A DNA stretch of 64,000 nt from NCBI GenBank assembly GCA_037447655.1, contig JBBHKE010001628.1:174272-238271 (forward strand), written 5' to 3'. This document shows, piece by piece, positions 10,483 to 63,701 of this stretch. Source of the stretch: Zygnema cylindricum. Lineage: Eukaryota > Streptophyta > Zygnematophyceae > Zygnematales > Zygnemataceae. The notes under the pieces are model-generated. The model was not told the origin of the DNA. It did no database searches and saw only the letters and a program-made list of their open reading frames with translations. A program made the position numbers and the translations under genes. Each line of letters starts with the position of its first letter. The stretch's first letter is position 1.

Positions 10483-10495
10483 CTCCCCTTAATTC

Positions 10496-15803: not shown

Positions 15804-15808
15804 GTTTG

Positions 15809-21372: not shown

Positions 21373-21377
21373 TGTTT

Positions 21378-22090: not shown

Positions 22091-22112
22091 CTCCCCTTAA
22101 GCTTTAGAAGAC

Positions 22113-23684: not shown

Positions 23685-23698
23685 TGTTAAAGGCTCTT

Positions 23699-25350: not shown

Positions 25351-25428
25351 CGCAAAGAATTTCTTTTCACTGTTATCGGGAAAGCTGCTTACATCCTCCT
25401 CCTTAAGTTCATAGAAAAAAGCAGTTGG

Positions 25429-26345
25429 TCAACCACCTGATTGAGAAGGAACCCGACTTTCATCCCAACCAGAGCGAAAATTTCCTGTGGCTTTCGCTCT
25501 CTTGTAAGCATGACACATTATGAACACATGCACTTTTTCATCACAATAATAGCAGGTTAATGGCGACCTTCTAGGACCACTACCTCTACCAGTGCCACTG
25601 CCAATCTTAAAATCCGAAAACTGGTTAGCTAATGCCTGAACAGACTTACTACTACCTCTTTGTGACATTTGGTTAGCTTCTTCACTCAAAATAAGTTGAA
25701 TTGCTAATGCTATGTTCCATTGACGCTGTGGAATAGCCCTAAGCCTATCCATGGCTCCCTTATATTCATCGGGCAAAGTTCTCATCAACAACATAGCCTG
25801 CTGAGGTGGTGAAAAGTCCCCACCTACACTAGTACTCTGAAAGAACAACCTTTTCATACCATGACAATGATCTGACATACTACCTCCAGAATACTTAAAT
25901 TCAAAAATCTGAGTGGCTATGTTTGTCTGGACGGTAACATCTAGCTGAACATACATAGCACGTATACTAAACCAAACATCAGATGCTTTCTTCATCTCAA
26001 GATACGACATTACCAAATCTTTTGTCATAGACTGCTTCAATACGTTGAGGCAATGGAGATTCTTCTTTCTCCAATCCAGCGCAGTCACATCCGCTGTTCC
26101 TTCCACAATGGGTGACAAGTCCCTCTCTCGAAATATGAGCTCAACATATCTTCCCAATATAAGAAGTCAGTTCCGTCAAAAATAGGCAATTTGGGCGGTG
26201 GGCCCATAACCTGTTGAAGGTCATAGGCATTAAGACTCGGCTGTGATCCACTCCTAGTAGGAGTCACACTTGCACCAGCAGGAGCAGGTGGAGCACTAGG
26301 GCTAATAGGAGCACTTGCAATAGGAGCTGAGCCATTATCAGACAT
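25429..26345 (-). pseudogene. Element G gag, one frameshift
   Basis: The start codon is at 26345, inside the 5' LTR. The first 45 residues are Ala/Pro/Ser-rich (MSDNGSAPIASAPISPS...) and LTR-encoded. The primer-binding site follows as VMGPPPKLPIF. A frameshift near 26115 separates this from the frame 25429-26157, which holds the capsid-like region and a CCHC knuckle (CYYCDEKVHVFIMC). A single in-frame TGA (25429-25431) separates gag from the protease in the same frame. Confidence 0.87.
26197..26211 (-). other. Primer-binding site of element G
   Basis: An exact copy of GGTTATGGGCCCACC directly after the LTR end CAACA, in frame with gag. G belongs to a different family from D, so the site is conserved across families. 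Confidence 0.85.
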
Positions 26346-29479: not shown

Positions 29480-30513
29480 TGTTGAAATTTATAGATTTCT
29501 ATAGTATTTTCTAGGTTTAAATATGTTTTAATAAAAGGAAAAAGGACGGACAGCCTGCCTCCACCTCGCTCTCTAGCTCCCATACTTGTTGTAGTCACTG
29601 AAGGTAAGAGAGAGAGGTTGATCCATGGCTGCCTTTAGTTCAACAGACAGCTATTTTTAGTAGGTTACTAAAAATATACTTGACGGACGAGAGATTTGAT
29701 CCCGGTACCTACGGTTCGTCAAGTTGACCGGTAGCGGTCAGCTTTATCCTAATAGGCTAGGACCAATGTTAAGTGCTATGGTATGTGATAGATATATATT
29801 TAGTTAGGGAGAATTAAATCCATTTAACTAGAACTGTGTACGACGCACATAGATTCAGTTTTATATAGTACGTCGTACGACGCTAATTCAAAACGGATAC
29901 CGCGCATTTTATTTCGACATCGGAACAAATATCGCGCAAGTATTTATTACGGCTAAGATTGCGTTTCGCATAAAATCCAACGGCGCACATCATCGCCGAA
30001 ATCCCGGAGTGGTCACTTTGGCGTTTTGTGACGTGGCATGACCTGGAGCCACGTGGAGAGATGACATTCGGTCATAGGAATTCCGAGGAACGTACGGACG
30101 AGTGAAAAGCGGACACGCGTCCACTTAATAGCCTTGTCGTACATAGGCCGTACAAAAGGTACATCGGCAGTAGTACTTTTGTGTACGATACAGTAATCTG
30201 ATTGGTCCGTACTTCAGTAGATAGGAGTTATTAGAGAGAATCAGGACTTAGAAAATTTTGGTAGGTGGTCATCTCTCCCTTTGAGAGTTTGTACAAATTG
30301 GCATTTTTACTGCCTCATAACTTATCGCCTGGTTGGCCTTTTTTCAGTGATTCTTTTTTCTACGGACTCAGGGGAGTCCAGGCTACACAGGGGTGCAGTC
30401 AAATTGTCAGTTTGCCTTCTTGGGCAGCAGTGGTTGTGGCTTGAAGTGGGTTAGTTAAATACTATCTAGAGGCTTCCTGTATTCTGTAGTCCAATGGAGG
30501 ACACAGAATTGCA
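29480..30513 (+). repeat. 5' LTR of element D
   Basis: Starts TGTTGAAATT and ends GAATTGCA. It contains a minus-strand tRNA-like segment (29693-29753), gccacgtgg G-box near 30048, a run of GTAC motifs (about 30130-30215) and the gag start codon at 30494. R/U5 limits were not determined. Confidence 0.95.
29693..29753 (-). other. Antisense tRNA-like segment in LTR D
   Basis: The minus strand reads an A-box-like TTAGGATAAAGCTG, a TGACC/GGTCA hairpin where an anticodon arm would sit, and a B-box-like GGGATCAAATC. It is not a functional tRNA by eye: the acceptor stem is absent. The 3' LTR has the same copy. The same position and orientation recur in LTRs of A, B, C, F, H and I. Confidence 0.5.
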
Positions 30514-33500
30514 GGTTATGGGCCCACCCTCTAGGGTGCCCACCTTCAATGGATCTGGGTTCATCTATTGGGAAGCCATGATGATGGGAGCTTTGTGTGA
30601 AAAACGATACTGGGGTATCGTTAGTGGACAAGTGAAACGTCCACCTTCGGGAACTCCACCAGGATTTGGGGGAGTAAGGTTTCCTGCAACAACGGCTGCC
30701 TCGGCGGAGGAGGCAGATGATGGGGACAGCAGTGTGTCCGAAAAGGGGAAAGGGAAGGAGACACCCCTCACTCCTATTGCCACAGTATCGGGAGCGGCAA
30801 TCGTGAAGACCGTGGAGAACGATACTCAAATGTGGGAGGATGTAAACATGGCTGCCAAGAACTTCATTCTGAGGCACCTCACTCAAGGTTTGGCCACCCC
30901 TCATCTTCACATTTACAAGGCCGAGGAGTTGTGGGTGAGTTTGGTGGAAATTTATAGAGCTGGAACTATTCAGGAGCTCCAGTTGGCTGAGCAAAAGCTA
31001 CTGAGTTACACTTACAAAGGAGGAAAGATGCTAGATTACTGTAATGATCTTTCTTGTTTGTATACGGAAATGGAAAGTGCCGGGTGGATAGGTACAGTGA
31101 AAATGAAAGTTAACACCCTTATCATGAAATTACCAAATGAGTTCGAAAACTTAGTGTACCGAGTACAGGGAATGCCTGATAGTTCATGGAAATGGAACAC
31201 AGTAGTCAGGATGATACTTGTGCAGGAGAACACAATGGAGATTAGGAGAGGAGGAAAGAGCATTCAAGCTCTAGCAGCAGGAGGGGACCGATGGGGGAAG
31301 GACCCGAAGAAACCTTATAGAGGGGAAAGAGATCATTCAGGGGGACAGAGGCCCCCAAAGGGTCTTTGTCATTATTGCAAAAAGCCGGGACACTTTATTG
31401 CAGATTGTGTCAAGCTATCAGAGCTGAGGCTCCAAGAGAACCGTGGAGGGGGTTCTTCCGGAGGGAAGAAAAAGGCACTTGTGGTTACAAAAGTGTCAGG
31501 AGAAATCGAGGATGAGTCCTCTGAGGAGGATGGGGAGCTTCTTCTTGACGAGAGTTTGGAGGAGAAGGAGATTCCTCGGAGGCAGAAGTGTGCCCTTGGA
31601 GCCATCCGGGAGGCTCCACAGGAAGGATGGATCATCGACTCAGGTGCATCCATGCATATGTGTCGTGATAAAGAACTCTTCACTAAGTTAAGAAAGATTC
31701 CTACTGTAGAGATAGAGTATGGGGATGGAAGAGTGGTTACTACAGATCTAGTGGGATCAGTAGATCTGAAAGTCTTAGTGGAGGGTAAGACTTCTATACT
31801 TACATTCTCAGATGTACTTTACATTCCTCAGCTGAGTAAAAATCTTGTCTCTACGTCTGTGTTAGATGACAAAGAGTTTGATACCTTCACCAGAAAGGGA
31901 GTCTTTACAGCTAAGTATGGGGATGAAGTTTACTTCACAGCAGATAAGGGTAGCCAAGGAATGTTTAGGCTTAACTTGAGTAATGAAAAGAAGAATGCTT
32001 ACTATGTTGGTGTTCCTAAGATGATGATTTGGCATAAGCGGTTGGGGCATGTACATTTTGATAGGTTAAGGGAAATGAAAAAGCTTGGGGTAGTAGATGG
32101 CATTCAGTTTGGGGATAATGAAATGATGGATGATTGTAGTGGTTGTGCTCAAGGTAAGGCTCACAGACTTCCCTTTCCCAAAGCCGCCACATATAGAGGT
32201 GAGAAAGTATTAGATTTAGTCCACACAGATATTTGGGGGCCTGCAAAAGTACCTTCGGTTGGAGGAAAAAGGTTTATGATGACAATAACTGATGACTGGT
32301 CTAGATACTCTAGAGTCTACTTTCTGAAAACAAAGTCTGAAGCATCAACTTACTTCAAAGAATATAAAGCTTGGAGTGAGAAGTTGCATGAAACCCCCAT
32401 TAAGAGGATAAGGAGTGATAATGGGGGGGAATATACCTCTAACGAGTTTGAGGAATATTTGAGAGATGAGGGAGTGCAGCACCAGAAAACTGTACCATAT
32501 AACCCGGAACAAAATGGGGTAGCTGAGAGGTTGAATAGAACACTAGGAGATAGTGCATGCAGTATGTTGGCAGACAAGAAAATAGGAAAGAGATTTTGGG
32601 CAGAAGCAATGAACTGTGCAAACTATATTAAAAATAGAGTCCTTACCTCAGCTGTAAAGGAAGTGACACCTTATGAGAGATGGGTTGGAAGGAAACCAGA
32701 TATCTCACACCTTAAAGTATTTGGTAGCCAAGTTTACAGTCTTGACACGGATAGGAAAAACTGGAAACTAGATGCTAAGGGAAAACCTGGATACTTTGTG
32801 GGATATGATGAGGATGTTAAGGGATATAGAGTCTATGACTTAGCAAAGAAAGATATCATTCTGGTCAAACACTTAGTTGTCATGGATGAAGGGAAGTCAT
32901 TTGACCCCTTCAAATATACAAAAAAGATAAGGATCAGATTTGAGTCCGAAAATGAGGAGAACTCAGTCGTTCCCGAAAAAGACATGAGTGAAACTGTGAT
33001 TACAGATTCAGGGGAGATCGAAGATATAGGAGACTCACCGGAAACCTCACATACTCCTATGGACTTCGAGGAGATGGAAGAAGCGGGACAAGATACGGTT
33101 TTTATGGACAGGGGAGCCGATGAGACAGTGAGAAGAAATCCAAGACTTCCATCCATTCCAGCTTCGGAGTTTGAGGGAGGAAGGAGGAGCAGCAAAAGGA
33201 TACAGGAAAAACAAGCTGCCCATAAGGTAACTAAGCTATCTCACCCAGATGAGCCTCAGTCTTACTTAGAGGCAGTGAATAGTCCAGAGAAAGAAAGATG
33301 GATTAGGGCCATAAATGATGAGATGGCTTCTATCATGGAAGCAAATACTTGGGAACTAGCGGATTGCCCTCCAGACAGAAAACCTATTGGATGTAAATGG
33401 GTATTTAAACTAAAACTGAACCCAGATAATACAATTGAGAGGTATAAGGCTCGATTGGTAGCGAAGGGGTTCACCCAAAAAGAGGGGATTGACTATGAGG

Positions 33501-34882
33501 AGACCTTTGCTCCAGTTGTTCGGTTCCCATCAGTAAGGATTCTCCTCAGTCTGGCCGCAGCGGAAGACATGGAAATTCACCAGATGGATATTAAGACTGC
33601 TTTTCTTAATGGTGAGTTAGAGGAAGAAATTTTTATGAGGCAACCCGAGGGGTTTGTGGAAGAAGGAGAAGAGAGCAAAGTGTGCAGGCTCATAAAGTCC
33701 TTATATGGACTGAAACAGGCTCCCCGACAGTGGAATAAGAAACTAGATGAGTTTCTCACCGATCTGGGATACATCCGGATCAGCTCTGACCATTCTATCT
33801 ATATGTTTGAAGATGAGAATGGTGTCATTTTTATTGCAATTTATGTGGATGATCTGCTGGTGTTAAGTAAGTCTTTAGAGAATATCAATAGGCTAAAGAA
33901 AGATCTTAGGGGCAGATTTGATATGAAGGATTTAGGGGAGGCAAAATATATTTTGGGGATCCAAATGGAGAGAGATAGGGGGAAGAAGATTATCAGACTT
34001 ACTCAGAAAGAAGCAATAGGTAATATGCTTGAGAAATTCCAGATGGAAAATGCTAACAGTTGTACCACTCCCATGGACTTGAAAAAAGGAAGTGATGGGA
34101 GTGTAGAAGGAGGAGTGATGATCTTAGACGATCAGATGAGTCCAGAGGAAAGAGAGTTCATGAAGTCTATCCCTTATAGACAGGTCGTAGGAAGCTTAAT
34201 CTATTTTATGAACTGTACCAGGCCGGACATAGCGGCGGCAGTTGGTGTACTCAGTAGGAGTCTTAATGATCCTAGGAAGAGGGATTGGGAGGCAGCCAAG
34301 AGAGTCATGAGATATCTGGTGGGAACTAGAGAGTTATGGTTGCATTTGGGAGGGGAGCACACTGACATCACTACTTGGAGTGATGCCAGTTATGGGGACG
34401 CACCTATGAGACGATGCACTTCTGGGTATGTGTTGTATGTTGGGGAAGGTGCTTGCTGTTGGAGCAGTAAGCAACAAAAGGTGGTTGCTCAGTCTACTAT
34501 GGAGGCTGAGTATATGGCGTCTTGTTCTGCTGTGAAAGAACTAATGTGGGTGAAGTCATTATTGCAAGAACTGGGATATATGAAGGAGGGAGTGCATGAA
34601 ATCTTTTGCGATAATCAAGCTGCAATCGCAATCGCAGCCAATCCAAAACATCATTTCAAAGCAAAACATATGGACATAAGATTAAGCTTCGTAAGAGAAA
34701 AAGTTGAAAACAAAATTTTAAATCTTGTGTATAGACCTGATGAAGAAATGGTGGCTGACATGATGACCAAACCTGTGCCCTCTCCTAAACTAAAATATTG
34801 TCGGGAAAAATGTGGGTTGAAAGAAAAAAATAAAATTAGACTAGAAAATAAGGGGAGTGTTGAAATTTATAGATTTCTATAG
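30494..34882 (+). CDS. Element D Gag-Pol polyprotein, intact
   Basis: This 1462-codon polyprotein carries all copia functions. Residues 1-7 are encoded by the LTR and the next few by the primer-binding site (VMGPP). A capsid-like Gag follows, with a CCHC knuckle CHYCKKPGHFIADC at about 291-304. Retropepsin IIDSGASMHMC is near 382 and the GAG-pre-integrase zinc motif (IWHKRLGHVHF...CSGCAQGK) near 510-560. Integrase follows, with D (TDDWSRY, ~599), D (SDNGGEY, ~640) and E 35 residues later. Reverse transcriptase has YVDDLLVLSKS (~1117), and RNase H has SDASYGD, TMEAEYMA and DNQAAI (~1295-1375). The final codons run through the purine tract and the stop TAG (34880-34882) lies inside the 3' LTR. 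Start choice: first ATG, matching METTEF and MEVSEL in C and A. Confidence 0.97.
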   Translation: MEDTELQVMGPPSRVPTFNGSGFIYWEAMMMGALCEKRYWGIVSGQVKRPPSGTPPGFGGVRFPATTAASAEEADDGDSSVSEKGKGKETPLTPIATVSGAAIVKTVENDTQMWEDVNMAAKNFILRHLTQGLATPHLHIYKAEELWVSLVEIYRAGTIQELQLAEQKLLSYTYKGGKMLDYCNDLSCLYTEMESAGWIGTVKMKVNTLIMKLPNEFENLVYRVQGMPDSSWKWNTVVRMILVQENTMEIRRGGKSIQALAAGGDRWGKDPKKPYRGERDHSGGQRPPKGLCHYCKKPGHFIADCVKLSELRLQENRGGGSSGGKKKALVVTKVSGEIEDESSEEDGELLLDESLEEKEIPRRQKCALGAIREAPQEGWIIDSGASMHMCRDKELFTKLRKIPTVEIEYGDGRVVTTDLVGSVDLKVLVEGKTSILTFSDVLYIPQLSKNLVSTSVLDDKEFDTFTRKGVFTAKYGDEVYFTADKGSQGMFRLNLSNEKKNAYYVGVPKMMIWHKRLGHVHFDRLREMKKLGVVDGIQFGDNEMMDDCSGCAQGKAHRLPFPKAATYRGEKVLDLVHTDIWGPAKVPSVGGKRFMMTITDDWSRYSRVYFLKTKSEASTYFKEYKAWSEKLHETPIKRIRSDNGGEYTSNEFEEYLRDEGVQHQKTVPYNPEQNGVAERLNRTLGDSACSMLADKKIGKRFWAEAMNCANYIKNRVLTSAVKEVTPYERWVGRKPDISHLKVFGSQVYSLDTDRKNWKLDAKGKPGYFVGYDEDVKGYRVYDLAKKDIILVKHLVVMDEGKSFDPFKYTKKIRIRFESENEENSVVPEKDMSETVITDSGEIEDIGDSPETSHTPMDFEEMEEAGQDTVFMDRGADETVRRNPRLPSIPASEFEGGRRSSKRIQEKQAAHKVTKLSHPDEPQSYLEAVNSPEKERWIRAINDEMASIMEANTWELADCPPDRKPIGCKWVFKLKLNPDNTIERYKARLVAKGFTQKEGIDYEETFAPVVRFPSVRILLSLAAAEDMEIHQMDIKTAFLNGELEEEIFMRQPEGFVEEGEESKVCRLIKSLYGLKQAPRQWNKKLDEFLTDLGYIRISSDHSIYMFEDENGVIFIAIYVDDLLVLSKSLENINRLKKDLRGRFDMKDLGEAKYILGIQMERDRGKKIIRLTQKEAIGNMLEKFQMENANSCTTPMDLKKGSDGSVEGGVMILDDQMSPEEREFMKSIPYRQVVGSLIYFMNCTRPDIAAAVGVLSRSLNDPRKRDWEAAKRVMRYLVGTRELWLHLGGEHTDITTWSDASYGDAPMRRCTSGYVLYVGEGACCWSSKQQKVVAQSTMEAEYMASCSAVKELMWVKSLLQELGYMKEGVHEIFCDNQAAIAIAANPKHHFKAKHMDIRLSFVREKVENKILNLVYRPDEEMVADMMTKPVPSPKLKYCREKCGLKEKNKIRLENKGSVEIYRFL
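30514..30528 (+). other. Primer-binding site of element D
   Basis: GGTTATGGGCCCACC follows the LTR end directly and is an exact complement of 15 nt of the initiator tRNA-Met anticodon arm. It is translated as part of Gag: its ATG pairs with the CAU anticodon. Confidence 0.87.
34851..34857 (+). other. Polypurine tract of element D
   Basis: AGGGGAG directly precedes the 3' LTR start TGTTG. The same tract precedes the 3' LTRs of C, E, G and I. Here it lies within the open reading frame. Confidence 0.85.
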
Positions 34883-39773: not shown

Positions 39774-39877
39774 GGTTATGTGCCCACTCTTTAGGGTGCC
39801 ATTTTTCAATGAAACGGGGTTCCTATACTGGAAAACCATTGTGAGTTGCACTTTTTGAAAAACGGCTATGGGGCATC

Positions 39878-42800
39878 GTGAGTGGTCGTGTGCGGCGGCC
39901 AGCTGCAAATTTGGGAGTTTTATATGGATTTGGCGGAGCTCTAACCTTAGAAGGATCTTTGGAGAAAGAGGAGGTAGATATTGATAGAGAAAGCATTGTG
40001 TTGGACAAAAGGAAGGAGAAGGGGATGGAGAAACTCACAGCGATAACTACTGGATCGGTACCGGTAGTGCGTGTTCAGAAAATCGAGGCAAATGATACAG
40101 AAATCTTTGACTTTAACAACAAAGTGGCAACTCGTTTTCTTCTCGGGCGTCTCACTGAAGCAGTTCATGCACCTCACCTTCATGTGGACAAGGCGACCGA
40201 TGTGTGAGAGGCTCTTGTAAATATTTACAAGAGTGGTACAATTCAGCAGCAGAAGATGGATGATCAAAAGGTGCAAGCATATGTTTACAAAGGAGGAAAA
40301 ATGCTTCATTCTTACAATGACATGTCTGGATTGTTTATGGAGTTGGAGAGTGCTGGAAAACAAGAGAGAGAGAGAAAAAGGGTGAATGCTTTGCTAATGA
40401 AACTGCCAAATGATTATGAGAACATCGTTAACAGGGTTCAGGATTTGTCACATCATCAATGGATCAGGAACTTTGTTGTTGGGATGATTTTGGTTTAAGA
40501 AAGCACAATTAAGAATTGGAGAGGAGGAAAGAGTGGTCAAGCCTTGGCAGCTGGAACTGATTCGAGGAATCAGGATTGAAAGAAACCTTATTGGAACTTT
40601 GGAGGAGGAGGGAGAGGAAATCAATCGAATGGATCCGGATCTAGGCCTCCAAAGGGGCTATGCCATTTTTGTGAGAAGTCGAGTCACTATAAAGTGGAGT
40701 GTACTAAGTTGACAGATATGAGACTTAAGGAGGGGCAGACCGGTAGATCAGCCGGCGGAAAGAAGAAGGCACTTGTGGCAACACAAGTAACAGGAGAGGA
40801 TTCAAATTTGGATGATGGAGAACTCCTTCTCAAAGAAGAGTTGGAGGTGAAAACCAAGCCGGAGATTCAAAGGAATCAAAAGTGTGCCTTCGGCAGAGTG
40901 AAAGAAGCTCCCAAAGAAGGTTAGATCATTCACTCAGGTGCCTCTATACATATGTGTAGAGAGAAACATATGTTTACCAAAATGAGAAAGATCTTTACTG
41001 TTGAGATAGATTATGGGGATGATAGAATAGTGACCATTAGGTTAGTGGGATCTGTGGATCTAAAAGTCTTAGTTGAAGGTAAGACATCGCTAGTGACTTT
41101 TTTCGATGTCATATTTATTCCAGAGTTGAAAAAGAATCTTATCTCTACATCGGTCTTAGATGATAAGGGTTTTGAGACTAGTACTAAGAAATGAGTCTTT
41201 GTTGCTAGCTATGAGGATGAAGTATATTTCACAGCTGAAAAGGGTAGCCAAGGAATGGTTAGGCGAATTTGAGTAATGGAAAGACGGGGGATTACTATGC
41301 CCATGTAAGTGACTTGATGGTTTGGCATTAAAGATGGGGGCATGTACATCTAGATAGATTGAAAGATATGAAGAAAATGGGAGTAGTTGAGGGAATCCAT
41401 TTTGGAGATAATGAGACCTTAGATGACTGTAGTGGATGTGCTCAAGGTAAGGCCCACAGATTACCTTTCCCAAAAACCGCAACCTATAAAGGTGAAAAGG
41501 TCATAGATCTAATACATACTGACATTTGGGGACCGGTCAAAGTGCCGTCGGTTAGAGGGAAAAGATTTATGCTTACTATCACTGATGATTGGTCTAGGTA
41601 TTCTAGAGTCTATTTCTTGAAAAATGAATTTAAGGCACCGGTTTATTTTAAAGAGTATAAAGCGTGGAGTGAGAAGCTTCATGAGACACCTATACAGAGA
41701 GTGAGGAGTGATAATGTGGGGGGAATACACATCTAATCAGTTTGAGGATTTTTTGAAAGAGGAAGGGGTTCAACACCAAAAGACTGTTCCAAAGAATCCG
41801 AAACAAAACGGTGTAGTTAAGAGACTAAATTGGACACTAAGTGATAGTGCACATAGTATGCTATCGGATAAAAAGATAAAAAAAACGCTTCAGGGTAGAA
41901 GTTATGAATTGTGATAATTACCTTAAGAATAGAGTCCTTACCTCAGTAGTGAAAGGTCAAACACCTTACGAAAGATGGACCGGGAGAAAACCGGATATCC
42001 CACACTTAAAGGTGTTCCGAAGTCAAGTTTTTAGCCTAAACGCAAAAAAATCTGATTGGAAGTTAGATGCAAGGGGAATGCCGGGGTAATTACTTGGATA
42101 TGATGAAAATTTAAAGGGATATAGAGTTTATGATCTCAGGAAAAAAGATATCATCCTAGTAAATCACTTGGTAGTTATGGATGAGGGAAAGTCAGTAGAT
42201 CCCTTTAAATATACTAAACCGGTCAGAATTAGAATTGAATCCGATTGTGAATAAGATTTAGATTCTTTTAACCAAACTTCGGTTCAACCGGACTTTGCAG
42301 ATGAAGAGAAAAATCTGACCGAGAATGACTCTCTCTTGGAGCCACAGTTTCCAGTTCAAACCGAGGAAGAGAACAAGAAAAGACCGAAAATGGATCATGT
42401 ACGACCGGAGATGCACTCCACGGATAGGGGAGAAGATGAAGTCATTCAGAGAAATCCAAGATTACCGTCTATTCTGGCTTCGGGTTTTGAAAGAGGGAGG
42501 AGAAGCAGTAAAAGACTTCATGAAAGACAAGTGAATAACAAGGTATCTAAGATATCACATTTGAGTGAACCCCAAACTTATTCGGAAGCAATTAATAGTC
42601 CGGAACGGAGTAGATGGATGACAACCATTAATGATGAGATGGCTTCAACTATAGAAGCAAACACATGGGAGCTGGTAGACTATCCCCCGGACAGAAAGTT
42701 GATTGGATGTAAATGGTGTTTAAGTTGAAACTCAACCGAGATAACACTATTAAGCGCTACAAGGCTGGATTAGTGGCCAAAGGGTTCACACAGAAAGAAG

Positions 42801-48730: not shown

Positions 48731-49030
48731 AAATTATGCACGCGTGCCAAAATCGTGCGTGCATGCATAAAATCGCGAGTGCATGCATGAAACCTCGCGC
48801 GCGAGCTTTAAACTGCGCGTGCATACAAAATACTGCGCGTGCGTGAAAAATACCGCGCGTGCGTGCATAATACCGCGCGTGCGTAAGAAAAACTGCGCGT
48901 GCATGGGAAATATCGCGCATGCGTGAGAAATACCGCGCGTGCGTGCAAAATACCGCGTGTGCGTACATTATATCGTGCGCGCACGCCAAATATCGCGCGT
49001 GCGGGAATGATATCGTGCGCGCATGCAACC
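48731..49030. repeat. 20-bp-period CG/CA-rich minisatellite
   Basis: Fifteen degenerate units in strict 20-bp register, for example tatcgcgcgt at 48991 and taccgcgcgt at 48851, 48871 and 48931. Consensus is about taccgcgcgtgcgtgcaaaa. The cores are alternating purine-pyrimidine runs. The open frames across it (minus strand, HARAVF-like repeats) are a by-product of the period. Confidence 0.88.
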
Positions 49031-53886: not shown

Positions 53887-54111
53887 TCATTTGCACTTGC
53901 TCGAATGTGGAACACAAATTCTTTTTCCAGTCGCCCACACTTTTCGAAGTGCAGCTCGTGTGCACGCAAACTTGTTCAATTTTTTAAACTTTTCCTTTTT
54001 TGTAAAACATTTCGACAGGCTGACGCAAGAGTCAGTAGCCTTCAAAGTGTACATGTTTCCTTTTAGACATGCTTTCGAATTGGCTCCCATATCATCCGCA
54101 CCGAGACAAAC
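53887..54111 (-). CDS. Final exon, LysM-like module 4 and stop
   Basis: Starts VCLGADDMGANSKACLKGNM, then YTLKATDSCVSLSKCF, a Lys-rich stretch (TKKEKFKKLNKFAC), and ends GKRICVPHSSKCK with TGA. The module is more diverged and very basic compared with the others. Acceptor TCGCAG. The basic tail could bind anionic cell-wall polymers; that is inference. Confidence 0.8.
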   Translation of the reverse strand, partial: VCLGADDMGANSKACLKGNMYTLKATDSCVSLSKCFTKKEKFKKLNKFACTRAALRKVWATGKRICVPHSSKCK

Positions 54112-57100
54112 CTGCGATTGCAGTGTTGTTGTTAAGCATATGGTTAGCAAAAACATTAGTGATAAAAAAAAGGCAATTGAATATAAGATCAGGTCTTCAT
54201 GAGTTGGACTTTTGATGGTTAGACAGTAAGAAGATATGAGATTTTCCCTTGTATTGGAGTGGTACATTTAACCTGAATTAATATTCTTTTCCATAACAGA
54301 GACAAGTTGCATAAGAGGTGAATATTGGAACAATACTTGGAACATTATCCTTCTCAATGACAAAATCGGATTTACATCAATATTGTTGGTTTATATAACA
54401 TAGAATTGGTTGTGACATATAGAGTCAGGTATTCAACAGTAAGAAGTAAATTACATGAATCATAATTTTAGGAATTATAATAAAAATGGATTAGTTTATA
54501 TGGTGTATAACACAAACTACATGTTTTAATGTAATGCCGACGATCAGGTAAACAGTGCTTGATTTAACATTTTGACCTCTTGGCTAAAAGATAAAATATT
54601 AATTCTAATTTAGTTACTTAAATCAATAAATTGACACTATTTTTTGTTAAAAAACTATTTAAAAATTGAAAACCTAATTTATAAGTGCTTGGTTTATGGA
54701 AACATTGACACAATTTTTTTTACCTGAAGCAAATGAAATTTCATGGCAAAGATGCGTAAATGAAGTTGTACAAAAAAAGTATTGTAAACATAAATATACG
54801 AGGAATAAAGACCTCACTAAACACCTCACTTATCTTTGTGCGTGATTTCCTCTAAATTCAAAAACCGCAAAATTCCTTTGCTGGTTAAGTAATTTTCACA
54901 ATAGTTCGACCGGGTGTCAAAAAAACACACCTGCTGTCCAATGTTCCCTGTTCCGCTAGAAATAAAGAGCAGTCGGCCGCAGTAAACTCCAGGATTGAGG
55001 GCATAGAAGAGACGAATATCGCCATCCAATTGGCTGCTGATAATGGAGAGACACGATTCGTCCTCTTTCACTTCGTATGGCCACGTGCAAGGTCCTAAGG
55101 AGGGGAGTGCCCCCCTTTCTATGCACACCTGATAATTGTTACACCGTCAACCATATATAGTGTGATTGGGCAGAGACACCTTAAAAATGTAAACTTTGGG
55201 CCATATCATGTCCGCGTAAAATGTGTAAACAAACCTTTGTGGACCATTGCAAATTTAATGCGCGTACTCATATAGGTCATTTCTAATACGTAGAAGTCAA
55301 CAAACTAGTTGATATGGCCTTTGTTAATAATGGTGCTCATTGTGAGACCTCTTATATTTGAAAAGAAATTTGAAAATATTCACTGAATTGGATTAGTTCA
55401 CTGGAGCGGAACAAAATTAAATGGGTAGCTGCAACGAATGTCTACAAATTAGGCAGAGGACTTCACCTCTGATTTTCATGGCAAAAGTTAATTGAAGAGA
55501 CAAATCACAGACATATAAACATATAGAATTCTGTTGCAACAAACGAATTCGAAAGAATCCCGTGTAAGAAGAGTAGACAAAAGTCCTGATTACCGGTTCG
55601 TAAATTTTTGGTATGACATTTTTCGTAATGGAAAGACGCACCTGCTGAAACGGGCGAAGTTGAAAGCAGTCCAAGTCAACATTCGGAGAATTTGGTCCCG
55701 AAAGCGAATCGATCTCAAACATACTGGTGATTGTGGCACAAGTGTCACCCTGCAGCAAACCAAAAAAACACGCTGTACAGACCATCATACGATTCAATTC
55801 ATGCAATAGAAAGCTTAGCCAAAGGCAACTATCATTAAAATGGAAAAACTGAAAAAATTACATCACTTAATGACCTCCAAGTTGTAGTCAACAGCACAGT
55901 ATACTGAAAAAGCAGAAAAAAATATTTTCATTTTTTTTCCATTAATGAACTTTTAATAGGGAAGGGAAAGTGTATCAAAACCTCATTGACGGCATAGAGG
56001 AGAGAACAGTTGTTGGAGGTTGTCACATTGACTCTCGTGTTAGGAAATAGTGGAACAGAGCAGTCAATACCCTGTCACAGAATTGAGTAAACTGGCATTA
56101 CATTAGGAAGTAATCTGACAGTGATAATAACTGAAGAAAAGAAAACAACGTATTTCTTTTATCCAATAAAAAAATAACGTGATTAGCACCAAATAAAACT
56201 CGGTATAGTTATTAAGCAGAAAATTCAATCAAAAAGTGAATGTACGGTGGTAAAGATGTCAATCATGACGCAGTACAGTGTGCATTGGCTGACCATCACC
56301 TTATTCTGTGTCAAAAACACATCCTTGTTGATGCCGTAAATGAGATAAATGTCATAACAGGTTACGTTCACTCCACTTGGCACCACGAAGTACTTCAGGG
56401 CACTCCCAATGGTACCATCTGGCCATTGTGAAAACCATTCATTATTATTTTTAGCAGTCATGTTCGCAAATGTATCATGAAATTAAACAAAATAGTTAAG
56501 CAACTTTATGGATCTTAGCAAAGGTAGTTTTATGTCCACAGCCATTTTGTACATCTTCTAAATTTTTACCTGCTACGCAAGTGAGCGTGCCACTTGGAGA
56601 GTCCAACACATAGCCGGGCGGGCAAATGCACACATAAGTTCCGGGTGGAAAAGAAGAGTCCAAGCAGGTGCCCACTCCACATGGATTTTGCGGACTGAAG
56701 GTACATGGGGAAGCTGCGACGCGTTCAAGGCCATAAAGAGTATCAAACTTAGGACAAAGTTAGCTTAAACTCAATACAACATATACCAACATTATGCAGT
56801 CCATTACCACTAACAATGCCACTAACAAGAATATAGTTGCTCGATTTTGCACCTGGAGCGCAGGTCTGCGAGCCGTCTGTATTATTGACAGCCACAAATG
56901 TATCCGTACATTGGCAAAGATTGGTGCTTCCCATTGGAACGCATACACCGTTGCCGCATGGGTTGGAGCGTCCTGGGCCGTATTCTGTTTTTAAAACTTT
57001 TTTTGCAAAGTTGACGGTGTTGCAAGGATCATTGGCTGGAAAGGTACATCATTTCCCAACATTCCCCACCATTTTCTAGCATGACATAAGTCCCATGTAG

Positions 57101-60100
57101 TTGATTTACGGTTATTATATTTGCTAAGGACAAGAGAATTGTACCGGTATGCATTTAATCTAAGAGAAAAATCAAAACCTAGTTTGGAACAGGATGGGTA
57201 ATACAAATATAACTTTTACAACTCAGGGTGGATTAGTGATCGCAAACTCTGTGGTTTTGGTCCATCCACTTGGTTTTCAAAAAACACTCTAGAAATAGTC
57301 TTATATCTAAAATACTCGCTCTCTCTTGTACATGTTAAGGAGAAACGTCTTGACAAAAATAGTGTTTGAAAAACTAAGTAGATCACGGTTACTTTTTTCA
57401 AGAGTAAATCGTTTTTTTCTTCAACGCATATGATTCAACACATAATATGCAAAAATACTTTTAAACTGCGTGATTGTAGGGTGTTAGTTGAGTTGCTACC
57501 AAGGCTAAAACAAAAGCCATAAAGGACAATTCTGTGGTGTTCAATGACGTGTAAGAACAGAGTTCAATGACGAGCGCTTACAAGGGGATTGTATTATCGG
57601 CACAAGTGCCGGAAGGCTGTTTATTCCACAGATTCCAAGTCCTCCAGTAATCTTGATTCGCATGTAGCCATTTTCTCCCCAATTGGTCCCCCACGAGTTA
57701 CGAAGGACCCAGCAAGGCGGTGACGATGTCAGGTCATAACCGACAACGACCACACTATGGTCCACGCCGCTTGAGAAGCACTCATTATCGTCAAATATCC
57801 CCTTCACAACATCAGGCACATCAATATTTTCCCATTCATTTCTTTGCCTAGTGTCAAGGCACATTTATAAAAATAGTACTAAATTGTTTTTGAGAAATAT
57901 TTTGATTTTAACAATCACACAGAGAAAAGAAGCAATCAAATAAAAATCCTGGGGAAAATTTAGAAGACCTCGTCCCCTTGAACACTATGCTTGGGTCCAA
58001 GCATTGGACCTAGAAAACCACGCATGCCTCCAAAATACGCAAAAGTTTTGCTCTTAAATGAAACCTGTCAATTCAATGAAACATCTTCACCTGTTATCAA
58101 CAATATGCTTCCCATGCTGCAAATGGATGCTTATAAATTCAAACACATTTTTTTAAGGTTTTTTATATCATATCAATAGCATTAGCGACTACTTCACAAA
58201 CTCACATCTTTGTAATTTTTGAAATTGTAACTGCTTCCTTCGATGTTGACAATGGCGGGTTGCTGTTGGAGTGCTAGGAGGAGACCAATCCAACCGTGAG
58301 ACTGAACTTCCTCAAAAGAGATGACACGTGTGCTGCTGGTGGGCTGCAACAAATCAACATGGAACAATATATTTTAAGAACGAGATGTTAAATTTTGTTG
58401 AAAAAGTCTGGATGTCCTTATAAGCTTATTGCATGTAATTCAACTGGACACTACTCTATAAGAGTCGAGTTAAATCTACGACATTTTTGGCCCAAAAGTA
58501 GCAAAGATTTTTTATTTTGCGTTTTTTATCAGCCTGTTTTAAACCAAACATTAATTTGCCCATGTTTTCGATTGTTGTCATCCATTATGTTTACTACTGT
58601 GAATGTGTTGGAAAAAAGGAAAGGTAATTTTTGAACCTAGATATGGCAAAAAACTATTTTAAAAATAAAGTAACTCAAACATAAAGCAACCTTTTTTAAT
58701 GATGCAACGTCAATTCGGACAGGGCCAACTTTCAATATTTTGGCTGAAATTAATGGACCTTTTTGGGGCTAGGCATTCAAAGAAGATTATTGCATATATT
58801 TCTCTTCACTAAATACAGAAGTATAATTTCTCAACATTCTCTTTTATTTTCAAGTAAAGACGCAATAGGAACTTGCGGAACTTGTTCCAAGATAATTATA
58901 TCACCTGGCAATATGAGAGAGATCATTTTTTCCTTTTGAAAGTTGACATACAACTAAGGTATATGAAGCTCACGTTTGTGCTTCTACAAAAAGATTATGA
59001 TTTGTGTTTTATTTCTTCATAATTTAGAAGTTTTCTGGGAACAACTTGAAGAATATGGTACTGTTTTATGGTTTTCTTTGACCTTTTTGGAATTTTCTAT
59101 TCCACTAATTTTTCAATTTTGTAGCCATCATTTTTTTCCGAAAATCAGGGAATAGAATTGTCGTTTGTGCCTAGTGTAAGTTTATTCTAATGTTCGTTGA
59201 ATGAGGTACATCACTCTATAGAAATAGTATTCCTAAATTTCCAAAACTAGCTGGAGAACAAAAAGTATCCATAAAATTTATTTCTCAAACCGTATCACAC
59301 CTTGAAGTTAAGACAGTTATTTGAGGAGTCCAATAGTACCTCACCAATCATATTGTGATTCTAATTTTTTCGACCTTTAGTGCCTTTGTTAATCAGTAAA
59401 TAAACAGATATATATTCAGGAAAAGGCATCAACATACTTTTACCCTCAAAACTTGTCACTGTAAAGACATCATACCTTGGGACCAACGCAACTGTTCGGA
59501 CCAAAATAAGCTTCCTTGAAAATGAGGTTGTTGGCCGTCGCATAATCAAGGGCGTCTGCTGGTGAACCCCCATCGCCACAAGTTTTATTTTTTCCGGAAC
59601 AAACAAGAAACTGTTCTTCCGGGATACTCGGAACTGGTACTTGGCCAGCATTGGCAATGAAGAAAGCGCTTTCAATGGCGGAAGTTGTAGAAAACACCCA
59701 GCAAGTATCTGTATGGAAACAAAAGTAGAGATAAAGGGACGATGGTTAAATACCCAGGTCGTTTACGCAATCAGTTTATCTATTCTACGCTGCATATCAA
59801 CGGTGGTGTTTTCAACCGTATGGTTAGTCACCTAGACTAGTATGTATGTATATTATATATCATTTTATAATCGCAGAGTTTGGGGTTATAGGTTCAGGAA
59901 TCTTTTTCTTGTTGAATAAACTGAGGTTTCCATATTTTATCTCCAGCCGATGTTCAGGAACCAACTATAAGTCTTGAGCTAGCAGCAAAGAAACAGTGAA
60001 TTACACATGGGGAATATATGTGCCAAATCAAGTCTTACTTACATACTCAGTCAGTAACTTAGGGTCAATTAGATATACCAAAAATCAGAACAATCCACAT

Positions 60101-63100
60101 TTCTCTTAAAGTCTACACTATGATGTAGCCGTATATACATAAGGCATACAGATTCTTAAGGTTTAATTTCTTTAAGAAAGCATTTTTATCTAGAATGGAT
60201 CTAGACTGTACAATGGTTAACATCCGTGATAAGAAAATTGGAATTTTTAACATGTCACTTGCAAAAGTAAATATGTGAATTCTCAGCAGATAATTAGTTA
60301 AGAAGCATCCAAATGATATTGTTGTTACAACCTATAATCTATAACTTATTAGCTGTTTTTACTGACAATTGTATAAGGTTTTAACAAAACACCACAACAT
60401 CTGAGATAAACTAAACATATTTGACGACTGCATATTGGTGTGTATACACTCTGTGTATGTAATTTACAAATTTATTTAGTTTTGAGTTTGCAAACCCCTG
60501 AACAAAATACAGGCTAACTCAAATGCGGAAAAGATTAGCATTCCCAATCCGTATTGACATACTGCACGTTTCCTGATCTCTTATTTGTTGCAACGCCTTT
60601 GCATTGGCCCATTTCCAGCTGGTCGCAACCATCCAAGAAGGAGTTGTCTCTTCGTTCAAATACAAATATCCTGCACTCAAGTAGCGGAAGTACTTATTTT
60701 TCTTTGATTGCACAGATGATTGAGCGTCAATATATCCAAGGCCTCGGTTTCCTACATCCAAAACACACAGATCATGCAGGTTAACAATTAGAAAGTTTGC
60801 AAAAAGAAACTTGGTTACGAGTATAGTTTATTTTTATATTATTTTTTGGAGGGATGGACAACAAAATGAAATTGTTGAATATTTTACAATAAAATTGGAT
60901 GCATAGATACATAGCTAGCGATTTATAGAGAAATTTTATTTTAGGAAACATCAATTTATACAGAAAATAGAATGATCGCAAACTCAACAGCAAAGTCCAT
61001 GTTTTATTTGGGCCAAAGGCTTCATTATTGTGCCTCATGTGCATGTATTCAAATGATAAGAGCACGGGGCACCTGCACAGTAATTTGTCAAAATTCCTCA
61101 ATTTCATAATCATCAATACAAAAGATATTTGATATTGGCCGGAAGATGAAAAGAGTTTAGAATATACAGATGTATTAAAGAGAAAAGGAAGGTAGATGAC
61201 AGGAATATTCACTGCGGAGATGGTAAGGGGACAGAATGTGATGTATAATATACATAAATCTCCAATGCTAAAAAAAAATATGGAAAGACTAAAGTAGAGA
61301 AATGAAGAACCGTTTCACAAAAAAAAAAAAAAAAAAAAAAAGGGAAGGTAAAGGAAAGTTGTGAAGACACATCTCACCAAAGCTACAGGTGCTTGAATCC
61401 TCATTGTTATTGTATCCTAGATCGCATACGCAAGTTAAGTTACTGTCGCAAACTCCATGGCCTCCACACGCTCCCATTGGTTGTTTAGCATTGCAAAAGC
61501 CAAGGCATTCCATGGGGTCCTTTTGGTCTTCCTTCTGGCAACCAAACTGGGAGTTTTCCAAATCGAAGCAATTTGACCCTAAAGAGATTTCATTACATGC
61601 TTTCATTCCATTGATGGTGATTGATGGCGTTCCGGACAAAAAATTGTAAGAGAGGTCCACTCCGGGTTTTAAAAGCGTGGTAAAGTGGAGATTTACTACG
61701 CCTGTGAAAAAGTTGTCATTTAATTTCCTGAAAAATGAAAAAGATTTTATTTTTTGGAAAAGAGATATAGAAATCAATGTTATGTGTAAAAAATGATATG
61801 ATGAATCGTCGACAAACAAGTGATTAGTAACTACTTGAACACTTCATATCATGATTTTATGTTGACATGTTGGGTAGGCTATGGCAATTATTGCCGTATT
61901 GCGTAACAAAGTAACAGCTTTGGTGCAATACCTTGAGATCGTAAATGCTTTTCAAAGAAGGAGAAAATTTGTTGTCCAAGAGATGCACATTGGATATGAG
62001 TGGAATGAGATTTCATTCTTAGAGTGTTTGAAAGTGGTTAAGAAACGAACAAATTGGAGAGAGTGCGTATATCTGCCAGCGACGCAGGAATATTTCCTCT
62101 GAATTGATTCTTGTAGAGGTACCTGTCACGCCCAAGTGATATTCCAAAAGTGAAAAAAAAATACATTCAAGGACATTTGTGCCATCGTCAAGCGTAGGAG
62201 GGTGTGCTTTTTGGACGAAGGCCAACGAGGCCTCCATCACCATGACTAATAACTTTTAAACTCTAAATTCGTTATCCAGAACCAAAGAGCAAACCGTTGT
62301 GCTTTCTTGTCATGATTGCGGGAAAGGAGAAAAGGTACTAGTTCAAAACGATGGGGGGTTCAAGTCCCCACAGGAAAGAAACCTTTTTCTAGTGAATCAT
62401 AGAAGCTAAGAAACTTAAAGAGCTATTGTGGAATCGATGTTCATCTCGGTATTTTGGGTTCAAACGTGTTTCCTCTGAATGAATCATGATCGCACAGCTC
62501 TTTTAAATTATGTAATTTTTGTGCTCACTTACGCTATGTGATGCGTGAATGGATGTGCACAAATTTTACTTATCATGGTCCTAATGCGTAAGCATATTAA
62601 AAATAACGTTCACTTGGACCTTATATGACTCGAAACTTGATCGGTGTTAAAGAGAGAACATACAATTGTCGAAGGCTTCGCAAATTCGCAATATTTCCGG
62701 GGATGCTTACAAGTCCATTCCTATCCAGGAACCTGCAACATTTACAGATCCAAAAAGAAGAATTTGAAAGTTTATAACACAGCAATTGGATTTTTATGAC
62801 TCATTTGTTGATTAAACTCAACACTTGATAGCCTATAGCATCGTAGGGGAGTTATCATCCTTAAGGGACAAGAATCAAACACGTTTATCTGCCTTGCCTG
62901 AAGACATCGCTTGTGCATTACGCATCTAGTTGAAATAATATAATGTCTGGTTGAAAAATGAACGCGGAAAAGTTCACCAACATATCAAAACTTCGGATAA
63001 TAAAAGACACAAAACTAAAAATCCCAGAAGATTAGTCCTCAAATTTCGTAAATGGTACTTAGAGACTTGCAAAATGATTGAAAATTTAAAAAGGGAAAAA

Positions 63101-63701
63101 AAAAAAAGAAAGGCAAAAAAAGGCCCAAAAAGGAAAAAAAAAGAAAAAGAGCAAAAATAAAAGGAAAGGCTGCCCTTTGCATTTGATGGCTGAGATGATG
63201 AAATGTTGCAAATATAAAACATTAAAACAAGGAGCTGCGAAGAGTGGTTATTGCGATTGCGGGACACTCACAATTCTTGGAGGATAAAAAGGCTTCCAAT
63301 GCTTTCAGGAATGGCACCAGTCAACTGATTGGACGATAATTTCCTACAAGTCGTAAATTAGGAAATTAGAAGCAACAATGATGCACAAAGTTGTGCGCTT
63401 AACCAGAAAATCATAAAAGGGCAAGGTTTCTTTAGCTCAATAAAATCAGATATGCTTGATATGTTTCCATTTCGTCCAGATAGATGTATCAAAACATATG
63501 TCAATATGACAATTGTTAGCGTAGTCATCATTGAAAAGTTTTAACATGAACAGCAACGTGAATTCTTGAAGGAAAAATGCCGATGCTAAAATTACGCAAA
63601 AATAAAATCTATTGAAAGAAAGACCTCACAAAGTTTGGAGCCTTGTGCAATTTCCAATGGAAGAGGGAATGCTGCCATTCAATTGATTTCTTGACAAATC
63701 T
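53887..63701 (-). CDS. LRR-EGF-papain-EGF-LysM protein gene, 5' end missing
   Basis: Sixteen exons on the minus strand join in one frame (2482 nt, about 826 residues to the stop): 63630-63701, 63272-63343, 62664-62732, 62051-62122, 61378-61727, 60563-60751, 59476-59708, 58206-58343, 57582-57801, 56853-57035, 56570-56713, 56300-56418, 55982-56071, 55642-55749, 54931-55128, 53887-54111. Every junction uses GT...AG and phases agree throughout. Order of modules: LRRs, Cys cap plus EGF, C1A cysteine protease with catalytic residues present, two EGF modules, four LysM-like modules. Disulfide-rich modules imply a secreted or cell-surface protein. LysM modules in known families bind chitin- or peptidoglycan-type glycans; LRRs bind proteins or peptides. 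Function is inferred: a protease directed to a microbial or cell-wall target. The N-terminus, signal peptide and any further LRRs or propeptide lie beyond 64000. I know of no characterised protein with this architecture. Confidence 0.85.
54931..55128 (-). CDS. LysM module 3 exon
   Basis: Starts VCIERGALPSLGPCTWPYEV, then KEDESCLSIISSQLDGD, FYALNPGVYCGRLL and ends GNIGQQ, again splitting before VC of the next exon. This is one full LysM repeat unit with conserved Cys, Leu-Asn-Pro and Cys. Acceptor TATCAG, donor GTGTGT. Confidence 0.82.
55642..55749 (-). CDS. LysM module 2 core
   Basis: Encodes GDTCATITSMFEIDSLSGPN, then SPNVDLDCFQLRPFQQ. GDTCA-I---F-I--L---NP--DC--L--GQ-VC is the plant/fungal LysM signature. 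The splice falls between QQ and VC. Acceptor CTGCAG, donor GTGCGT. Confidence 0.83.
55982..56071 (-). CDS. LysM-like module 1 end and module 2 start
   Basis: Thirty codons, GIDCSVPLFPNTRVNVTTSN then NCSLLYAVNE. The first part completes LysM module 1 (N-GIDC------G--V-V); the end opens module 2 (C--YAV-EGDTC with the next exon). Acceptor TGACAG, donor GTTTTG. Confidence 0.72.
56300..56418 (-). CDS. LysM-like module 1, first half
   Basis: Encodes ALKYFVVPSGVNVTCYDIYL then IYGINKDVFLTQNK, which fits a LysM pattern (Y-V--G--C--I---Y-I----L---N). Acceptor GGCCAG, donor GTGATG. Confidence 0.72.
56570..56713 (-). CDS. EGF-like module 3 (144-nt symmetric exon)
   Basis: One complete EGF-like module: CTFSPQNPCGVGTCLDSS, then YVCICPPGYVLDSPSGTLTC. 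Both ends are phase 1, the classic form of a shuffled EGF exon. Acceptor TCGCAG, donor GTAAAA. Confidence 0.9.
56853..57035 (-). CDS. Exon with EGF-like module 2
   Basis: Begins NDPCNTVNFAKKVLKTEYGP, then the EGF-like NPCGNGVCVPMGSTNLCQC up to QTCAP. Acceptor TTCCAG: using the AG nearer the EGF (AAACAG) would create a stop at the junction. Phases are 1 and 1. Confidence 0.85.
57582..57801 (-). CDS. Protease exon with catalytic His and Asn
   Basis: Encodes GIFDDNECFSSGVDHSVVVV, where His follows Asp as in papain, then CWVLRNSWGTNWGENGYMRI with the catalytic Asn in NSWG, and GICGINSLP. The acceptor GAAG is weakly supported (poor pyrimidine tract) but is the only in-phase AG that avoids a stop and restores the family's Y-DG-- motif. 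Donor GTAAGC. Confidence 0.9.
58206..58343 (-). CDS. Protease central exon
   Basis: Forty-six codons in phase 0: VISFEEVQSHGWIGLLLALQ, then QQPAIVNIEG and YNFKNYKD. This matches the segment of papain-like enzymes just before the catalytic histidine (ALKQQPVSVAI...F--Y). Acceptor TTGCAG, donor GTGAGT. Confidence 0.86.
59476..59708 (-). CDS. Protease exon with catalytic cysteine
   Basis: Joins in phase to give QETCNTCWVFST, matching papain QGSCGSCWAFS; the catalytic Cys is the one before Trp. It continues with SAIESAFFIANAGQ, EEQFLVCS and CGDGGSPADALDYA, which correspond to the LSEQ-LVDC and C-GG-P--A segments of the family. Acceptor ATACAG, donor GTATGA. Confidence 0.92.
60563..60751 (-). CDS. 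Protease N-terminal exon
   Basis: Encodes about 62 residues. The first part (NRGLGYIDAQSSVQS...) matches nothing I know. The end (SWKWANAKALQQIRDQETC) aligns with the mature start of papain-like proteases, including the oxyanion-hole glutamine in RDQ. No ERFNIN or GNFD propeptide motif is present between the EGF module and here. Donor GTATGT. Confidence 0.83.
61378..61727 (-). CDS. Last LRR, Cys cap and EGF-like module
   Basis: This exon of 350 nt starts KLNDNFFTGVV, continues with VDLSYNFLSGTPS (the last LRR) and a cysteine cap (NCFD...GCQKEDQ...ECLGFC), then an EGF-like module ACGGHGVCDSNLTCVCDLGY ending in TC. Donor GTGAGA. A 20+ nt T run (coding strand) lies in the intron just downstream (61319-61341). 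Confidence 0.87.
61927..61986 (-). pseudogene. Degenerate LRR exon, probably skipped
   Basis: Sixty nt encode an LRR-like HLLDNKFSPSLKSIYDLKVL in the right phase, but the bases before it are TGT (no AG) and those after it are GC (no GT). Four residues of a full repeat are missing. Skipping it keeps the frame between exon 4 and the EGF exon. It looks like a repeat unit losing its splice sites, or an unusual GC-donor exon. Confidence 0.45.
62051..62122 (-). CDS. LRR exon 4 (72 nt)
   Basis: Encodes YLYKNQFRGNIPASLADIRT then LSNL. Acceptor GTGACAG; the donor is the weak GTTCGT. Confidence 0.83.
62664..62732 (-). CDS. LRR exon 3 (69 nt)
   Basis: Encodes FLDRNGLVSIPGNIANLRSL then RQL, one residue shorter than the standard repeat. 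Acceptor TTGCAG, donor GTATGT. Confidence 0.86.
63060..63170. repeat. Purine-rich A/G tract in intron
   Basis: An A/G-only run of roughly 80 nt on the plus strand (pyrimidine tract in the transcript) between LRR exons 2 and 3. Simple sequence; the ORFs across it are not coding. Confidence 0.7.
63272..63343 (-). CDS. LRR exon 2 (72 nt)
   Basis: Encodes KLSSNQLTGAIPESIGSL followed by FILQEL. Acceptor TTGTAG, donor GTGAGT. The splice phase matches the neighbouring exons. Confidence 0.88.
63630..63701 (-). CDS. LRR exon 1 (72 nt)
   Basis: Encodes DLSRNQLNGSIPSSIGNCTR and LQTL, a canonical plant extracellular LRR. The acceptor is TTTCAG and the donor GTGAGG. The exon is exactly 72 nt in phase 2, like the next ones. 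Confidence 0.88.

Follow-up and report, generated by a model that had tools for sequence, protein, structure and literature searches.

Does a gene at the end of a contig of the alga Zygnema cylindricum really encode, in one chain, a papain-type protease set between leucine-rich repeats (LRRs) and LysM modules, and if so, what kind of protein is it? The stretch that raises this question, hereafter the window, comprises 64,000 nucleotides of contig JBBHKE010001628.1 (assembly GCA_037447655.1, positions 174,272 to 238,271 of the forward strand). An earlier note, made from its letters alone, had joined sixteen exons into one secreted protein with LRRs, EGF modules, a C1A protease and LysM-like modules, in which glycan binding might be coupled to proteolysis, and it knew of no described protein with this combination. 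We followed up this reading with domain scans, comparisons with paralogues in the same genome and searches for relatives in other algae (handles such as C20 or P0068 are our own). Taken together, the sequence evidence indicates that the architecture is real, that it belongs to one gene and that this gene is a member of a large family. Our preferred explanation, to which we give a probability of roughly 0.6, is a large zygnematophycean family of secreted, glycan-anchored modular C1A proteases with exchangeable recognition modules; the family is probably undescribed so far.

Joining the 16 exons on the minus strand (63701-53887) gives a single open frame, 826 codons long before the stop that closes the last exon, and the exons have AG..GT borders throughout; the alternative frames of the same join contain 36 and 33 stops. 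Read from the visible protein, the order runs from the LRRs, of which exons 1-4 hold one apiece (23-24 residues), through a Cys-rich cap with EGF1, the papain (C1A) domain, EGF2 and EGF3 to four LysM-like modules. All of the proposed exons were thus found in place and in a single frame, though they cover the 3′ part of the gene only. The contig end (238271) is the last base of the window and, since the contig stops there, the 5′ end of the gene is missing from the model, such that about two thirds of one gene, its 3′ part, are visible. One of the closest paralogues, C20+, has an additional LRR exon (C20:90031) and an LRRNT_2 match (E 3.4e-10) in an open frame that is tied to the gene by position (C20:88662-88826). 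For this reason, the model probably falls short of the full gene by at least one LRR, the LRR cap and a signal peptide, and the part beyond the contig end is expected to hold more LRRs, an LRRNT and a signal peptide.

The modules were evaluated with Pfam. In the whole protein, Peptidase_C1 was matched at residues 254-461 (E 2.6e-41, 142.6 bits against a cut-off of 20.7), along with LRR_8 (E 1.5e-9), LysM (22.7 bits, cut-off 20.9) and both cEGF and EGF at residues 541-579, where the EGF model exceeded its cut-off only when the module was scanned alone (24 versus 21.5 bits). The C1 domain can be aligned to ervatamin and actinidin, with the catalytic Gln, Cys, His and Asn all in place (motifs in the table below). 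Around 42 residues separate exon 5 from the start of the C1 match, and the I29 prodomain (PF08246) was not found when the window protein was scanned with E values up to 1, nor, at 0.001, in P0068, an algal relative described below. The window protein, whose C-terminus is a LysM-like module, likewise matched no granulin domain within the same limit of E, and the Pfam scans of the window protein and P0068 contained no kinase domain. Scanned as a whole, the LysM tail passes its Pfam cut-off (31.1 bits against 20.9, E 2.3e-7), and a LysM match at E up to 1 was seen in all four tails compared (window and paralogues). When all four LysM modules of window and paralogues were combined in a mixed profile and searched against the PDB, LysM domains of chitinase A were retrieved (3.6e-11 and 1e-10). 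An NCBIfam scan of the C1 part gave one chance-level row and an Rfam scan of the window gave no match. The proposed list of modules (LRR, EGF, C1A and LysM) is therefore borne out by Pfam, cysteine pattern and LysM profile, with EGF1, EGF2 and the single LysM modules on weaker footing.

The gene structure is kept in the closest paralogues. C20+ retains the lengths and AG..GT splice sites of 16 of 16 exons, and C20- (11 of 16 exons covered) and C2653 (13 of 16) do so except for two length changes, -9 and +6, both multiples of three. This comparison leaves out C20- exons 1-4 and C2653 exon 1, which were false alignments outside the compared stretches, and, as truncated, C20- exon 5 and C2653 exons 2 and 12. 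Between the window and C20+, the ratio of nonsynonymous to synonymous substitution rates (dN/dS) was 0.21 overall, with 0.27 in the LRRs, 0.26 in exon 5, 0.13 in C1 and 0.06 in EGF2-3, and the exon groups of C20- and C2653 gave 0.04-0.22. Judged by these ratios, the gene is evolving under purifying selection. The divergent paralogues C39 and C631 keep the module order at about 30-75% identity per exon. A signal-peptide exon at C39 was considered as a candidate only and set aside, its LRRNT-like piece having no Pfam match, and it was not found in the C1505 and C1662 stretches.

In the list of the seven best exon-5 matches, all six loci apart from the window have a further LRR-EGF exon on the same strand, some 6-12 kb upstream of the paralogue (C20:85011-86844 and, as placed by position, C20:287051, C20:348033, C2653:111232, C249:420193 and C226:44798); on C20 a long open frame rich in proline comes after it. 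We considered a longer gene that would link this exon to the paralogues and rejected it. In C20+, the sole locus read, the LRRNT_2 cap stands between the two, so the upstream exon probably belongs to a neighbouring gene that was duplicated along with this one.

We then asked how common the architecture is in the same genome (352.8 Mb in 2,689 contigs), with matches chained by contig, strand and distance (at least 150 matches for C1, at least 125 for the EGF/LysM tail, of which 94 were used, and at least 150 for exons 5-6). An exon-5 (LRR/EGF) match stands upstream of the C1 exon with His and Asn in at least 59 chains on 52 contigs, where a rough estimate, its 15 kb distance simplifying the chaining rule, would give 0.27 such pairs by chance. 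At least 51 of these 59 chains also hold an EGF/LysM tail exon; the other 8 have none among the matches used. In a further 75 chains, the C1 exon lacks an exon-5 match among the matches listed, in part because the match listings are incomplete. Of the 29 Pfam LysM matches in the genome, 14 follow a C1 exon downstream on the same strand, at most 10 kb away (0.06 expected), and 15 do not. Cys, His and Asn are kept in 19 of the 21 LRR-type copies with comparable exons 7 and 9. The remaining two have open C1 exons, with Cys changed to Ser in one (L054, C385) and His to Gln and Asn to Lys in the other (L050, C784:2100-5100, called C784a); by their residues they are likely pseudoproteases. In a tree of C1 pieces the 21 LRR-type copies fall on one side (83/96) and, with the three outgroups on long branches, this goes as far as suggesting one origin of the LRR-C1 fusion.

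Other genes of this genome carry the protease with different N-terminal parts. C209 runs C1-EGF-EGF-LysM on one strand from what looks by eye like a signal peptide, with no LRR or EGF1 in the 5.5 kb read, and C1597 is a more divergent C1-EGF-EGF-LysM gene, read from C1 onward. For 12 C1 exons, legume-lectin exons are found on the same strand no more than 6 kb upstream. They account for 18 of the 83 lectin rows, where 0.10 would be expected, and 3 more lectin rows stand near C1 exons in other arrangements; none of the 12 C1 exons has an exon-5 match among the matches listed. These lectin exons, often in tandem pairs, were noted 2.8-5.0 kb 5′ of C1 at C1824, C2586, C2027, C569, C1744, C1385, C1038, C1808, C587 and C1773. 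The lectin-headed genes are perhaps a second branch of the protease family, and on the gene structures read here a C1-EGF-EGF-LysM core is common to many members, the recognition modules at the N-terminal side being exchangeable.

Relatives in other algae were sought in three protein searches, which returned 66, 31 and 97 proteins in candidate lists limited by shared words. According to precomputed Pfam annotation, LRR, C1 and LysM occur together in none of the 66, in 9 of the 31 and in 4 further of the 97. Of these 13 proteins, 11 are from Closterium, one from Mesotaenium (JGI code Mesen1) and one is a EukProt entry without a species name. LRR, C1 and legume lectin are combined in 5 of the 31 and 5 further of the 97, including P0105, which has LRR, lectin, C1 and LysM, and Closterium P0018 has LRR, EGF and C1. 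Matches named as flowering plants covered about 40% of the query, with the I29 prodomain present.

The EukProt protein, P0068, is the most informative of these relatives. It is 1178 residues long, carries a Trinity-style name, from which we take it to derive from RNA, has an open reading frame marked complete and begins, by eye, with a signal-peptide-like stretch; LRRNT_2 was not found in it at 0.001. Window residues 1-820 are collinear with P0068 at 39% identity (42, 41, 43, 49 and 35% by module), and its order is the same, from an LRR array through a Cys-rich cap with EGF1, C1A, EGF2 and EGF3 to four LysM-like modules. It runs unbroken through EGF1, protease, EGF2, EGF3 and LysM, and thus across both places, before and after the protease, where the earlier note had located a possible break between two genes. 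Together with the agreeing phases and a junction that is kept in paralogues, this speaks for the one-gene claim. The order LRR, C1, EGF where matched, and LysM was found in all five proteins scanned (P0068, P0077, P0075, P0081 and P0083), so that relatives with the same module order do occur in other algae, where the note had proposed to look for orthologues. In P0067 of Closterium sp. Naga37s-1, a predicted protein, two C1-EGF-LysM units were seen by eye in tandem in one chain, which could reflect either a genuine duplication or an annotation that fused two genes.

The features of the window gene are collected in the table. Elsewhere in the window, Copia-like retroelement frames were recognized by eye at 1-1309, 3737-5057, 9359-26166, 30470-34879 (a single open frame of 1470 residues) and 39845-42725. 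A 118-base unit is duplicated exactly in tandem at 3154-3389, and at 48810-49028 a 20-base unit, rich in GCGCGTGCGTG, forms a minisatellite. In the genome, GRAS-family matches were seen split into several pieces (27 rows; C1815, C899, C966, C1885, C658, C142 and others), which hints at a streptophyte and, together with the Closterium and Mesotaenium homologues, points to the Zygnematophyceae.

Table. Exons of the modular protease gene and adjoining repeat, in window coordinates
Feature	Position	Strand	Evidence
Exon 1: one LRR (DLSRNQLNGSIPSSIGNCTRLQTL)	63630..63701	-	Frame join, Pfam, paralogue comparison
Exon 2: LRR	63272..63343	-	Frame join, Pfam, paralogue comparison
Exon 3: LRR	62664..62732	-	Frame join, Pfam, paralogue comparison
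Exon 4: LRR	62051..62122	-	Frame join, Pfam, paralogue comparison
Exon 5: final LRR, Cys-rich cap, EGF-like module 1	61378..61727	-	EGF: sub-threshold matches and cysteine pattern
Exon 6: linker and N-terminal end of C1A, oxyanion Gln (RDQ), without I29 prodomain	60563..60751	-	Frame join, Pfam
Exon 7: C1A, catalytic Cys (TCWVFS)	59476..59708	-	Frame join, Pfam, C1 alignment, paralogues
Exon 8: C1A	58206..58343	-	Frame join, Pfam, paralogue comparison
Exon 9: C1A, catalytic His (VDHS) and Asn (NSWG)	57582..57801	-	Frame join, Pfam, C1 alignment, paralogues
Exon 10: EGF-like module 2	56853..57035	-	Cysteine pattern; alone without Pfam match
Exon 11: EGF-like module 3	56570..56713	-	Pfam, paralogue comparison
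Exon 12: LysM module 1, first half	56300..56418	-	Pfam, mixed LysM profile
Exon 13: end of LysM module 1 and start of module 2	55982..56071	-	Pfam, mixed LysM profile
Exon 14: LysM module 2	55642..55749	-	Pfam, mixed LysM profile
Exon 15: LysM-like module 3	54931..55128	-	Mixed LysM profile; alone without Pfam match
Exon 16: LysM-like module 4 and stop codon	53887..54111	-	Mixed LysM profile, paralogues; alone without Pfam match
Simple repeat adjoining contig end	63822..63985	.	Repeat scan, contig end

Several observations weigh against a family of secreted, glycan-anchored modular proteases. The gene's own start lies beyond the assembled sequence. Among the modules, EGF1 gave matches below threshold only (EGF_Teneurin 4e-4, EGF_2 0.003), EGF2 (residues 472-532) has its cysteine pattern as its basis, LysM modules 1 and 2 alone fall under the Pfam cut-off (E 0.02 and 0.05), modules 3 and 4 alone have no Pfam match, and an AlphaFold model of exon 15 by itself was uninformative (mean predicted local distance difference test score, pLDDT, 42.9). 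LysM is also the least constrained part of the gene, with a dN/dS of 0.40 against C20+, as expected if the glycan partner varied from copy to copy or if constraint were simply weaker there. To these points we add the simplified distance in the chance estimate and the two paralogues of 21 that have lost catalytic residues, whereby some members may work without proteolysis. Finally, the Closterium proteins are gene predictions and P0068 comes without a named source species.

Four other explanations were considered. That the model wrongly fuses two neighbouring genes, one for an LRR-EGF protein and one for a C1-EGF-EGF-LysM protease, is very improbable. Separate halves do exist in the genome, with the LRR-EGF exon standing alone in 22 chains among the matches listed and with C209 as a protease gene with its own signal-peptide-like start, but the phases agree across the exon 5-6 junction, exon 6 offers no ATG in its open frame ahead of the acceptor, and the junction is kept in paralogues, lies inside the single open reading frame of P0068 and is spanned by Closterium predictions as well. 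The two-gene model was therefore rejected on phase, paralogues and P0068. A reading of the copies as decaying or pseudogenic, spread by the surrounding retrotransposons, is scarcely credible. The window is crowded with frames that look Copia-like by eye and two paralogues are catalytically dead, yet introns are kept, frames are open, indels preserve the frame and the overall dN/dS is low, on which last ground we rejected it.

The other two alternatives accept the architecture and differ on what it does. The protein could be a secreted wall or matrix component in which C1A serves mainly for binding or structure, as in the TINAG type of animals, with catalysis secondary. Matrix proteins typically carry EGF and lectin-like modules, the I29 prodomain was found in neither the window protein nor P0068, and the C385 and C784a copies persist with open exons; we nevertheless consider this unlikely, as the catalytic residues are kept in 19 of 21 copies and the C1 module is strongly constrained (dN/dS 0.13). 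A protease for the alga's own wall remodelling or mating, held by LysM or lectin on its own wall or mucilage and with no role against microbes, is possible at rather less than even odds. All 12 of the named LRR, C1 and LysM proteins are from Closterium or Mesotaenium, and large families are known in sexual recognition as they are in defence; against it, the LysM modules match best those of chitinases, which favours glycans of N-acetylglucosamine (GlcNAc).

If the modular protease family is the correct explanation, its working could be pictured as follows. Through its LysM tail the protein would attach to glycans, of the GlcNAc type or similar, in a wall, in mucilage or on a microbe; the LRR solenoid (a legume lectin in sister genes) would bind a second partner, and the protease between these recognition modules would cut protein at the docking site. 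Because the I29 prodomain is lacking, control would have to differ, perhaps passing through the LRR/EGF part. Secretion of the product is likely from the signal-peptide-like start of P0068 (by eye), the LRRNT_2 match in a paralogue and the EGF modules, so the secretion that had been claimed for this gene has indirect support. The coupling of glycan binding to proteolysis in one protein is plausible; the ligands, the proteolytic activity and the role, be it defence, wall remodelling or mating, are what we infer. A bolder version, which we regard as tentative and rather doubtful, is that conjugating green algae possess combinatorial secreted 'recognition proteases', expanded to dozens for defence or mate recognition, in which the C1A-EGF-EGF-LysM core would, depending on the gene, stand by itself or carry an LRR receptor ectodomain, a legume lectin or the two together. 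Recognition and response would then be united in a single secreted, kinase-free enzyme, the soluble equivalent of the pattern-recognition receptors of plants. A family that fuses the recognition modules of plant receptors (LRR, LysM and legume lectin) to a protease would be another recognition-response combination in the plant lineage, with testable targets in algae amenable to culture and mating.

Full-text literature searches returned no description of the LRR, C1A and LysM architecture among the matches listed. One study counts 209 Pfam domain combinations unique to Zygnematophyceae, and the accessible part of its text does not name this one (PMC11096116). The Penium secretome includes cysteine proteases and an LRR-extensin (PMC6027541), and the words protease, peptidase, cysteine and LysM are absent from the main text of a Closterium copy-number study (PMC10407611). 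The statement that no described protein has the combination thus stands for the literature found, but zygnematophycean proteins in databases share it.

The nearest counterparts are these database proteins. Closterium CLOP_g5629, CLOP_g13511 and CLOP_g11113, Mesotaenium ME000166S01720 and P0068 have LRR, C1A and LysM in one chain like the window gene; the Closterium, Mesotaenium and P0068 proteins, hypothetical or nameless, align locally with it at 28-39% identity. The legume-lectin C1A proteins of Closterium have in common with it C1 together with LRR (P0069-P0071, P0076, P0086, P0100, P0101, P0103, P0105 and P0106), LysM (P0104, P0105, P0108 and P0110) or both. By eye, P0070 has a similar EGF- and LysM-like tail, but in P0070 and P0071 a legume lectin is inserted between LRR/EGF1 and protease. 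Within Zygnema, C209 shares C1, EGF and LysM with the window gene and differs in its own start and lack of LRR/EGF1 in the stretch read. The C1A gene L001 (C1970:119419-122655), presumably of the RD21 type, shares the papain fold and catalytic residues, whereas it has, by eye, a long propeptide-like N-terminal part and a granulin-like tail, and the 3.2 kb of its locus showed no LRR, EGF or LysM. Further afield, Amon, Haas and Sumper reportedly described in 1998 a cysteine protease of Volvox carteri with chitin-binding repeats, induced by sex pheromone and by wounding. The full-text search returned nothing on it, and no Volvox-named protein was among the matches of the three word-limited protein searches, many of which are nameless. 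The Volvox protein reportedly differs from the window gene in an extensin-like linker and in having no LRR or EGF array, and resembles it as a cysteine protease joined, in a green alga, to chitin-binding repeats of the LysM type.

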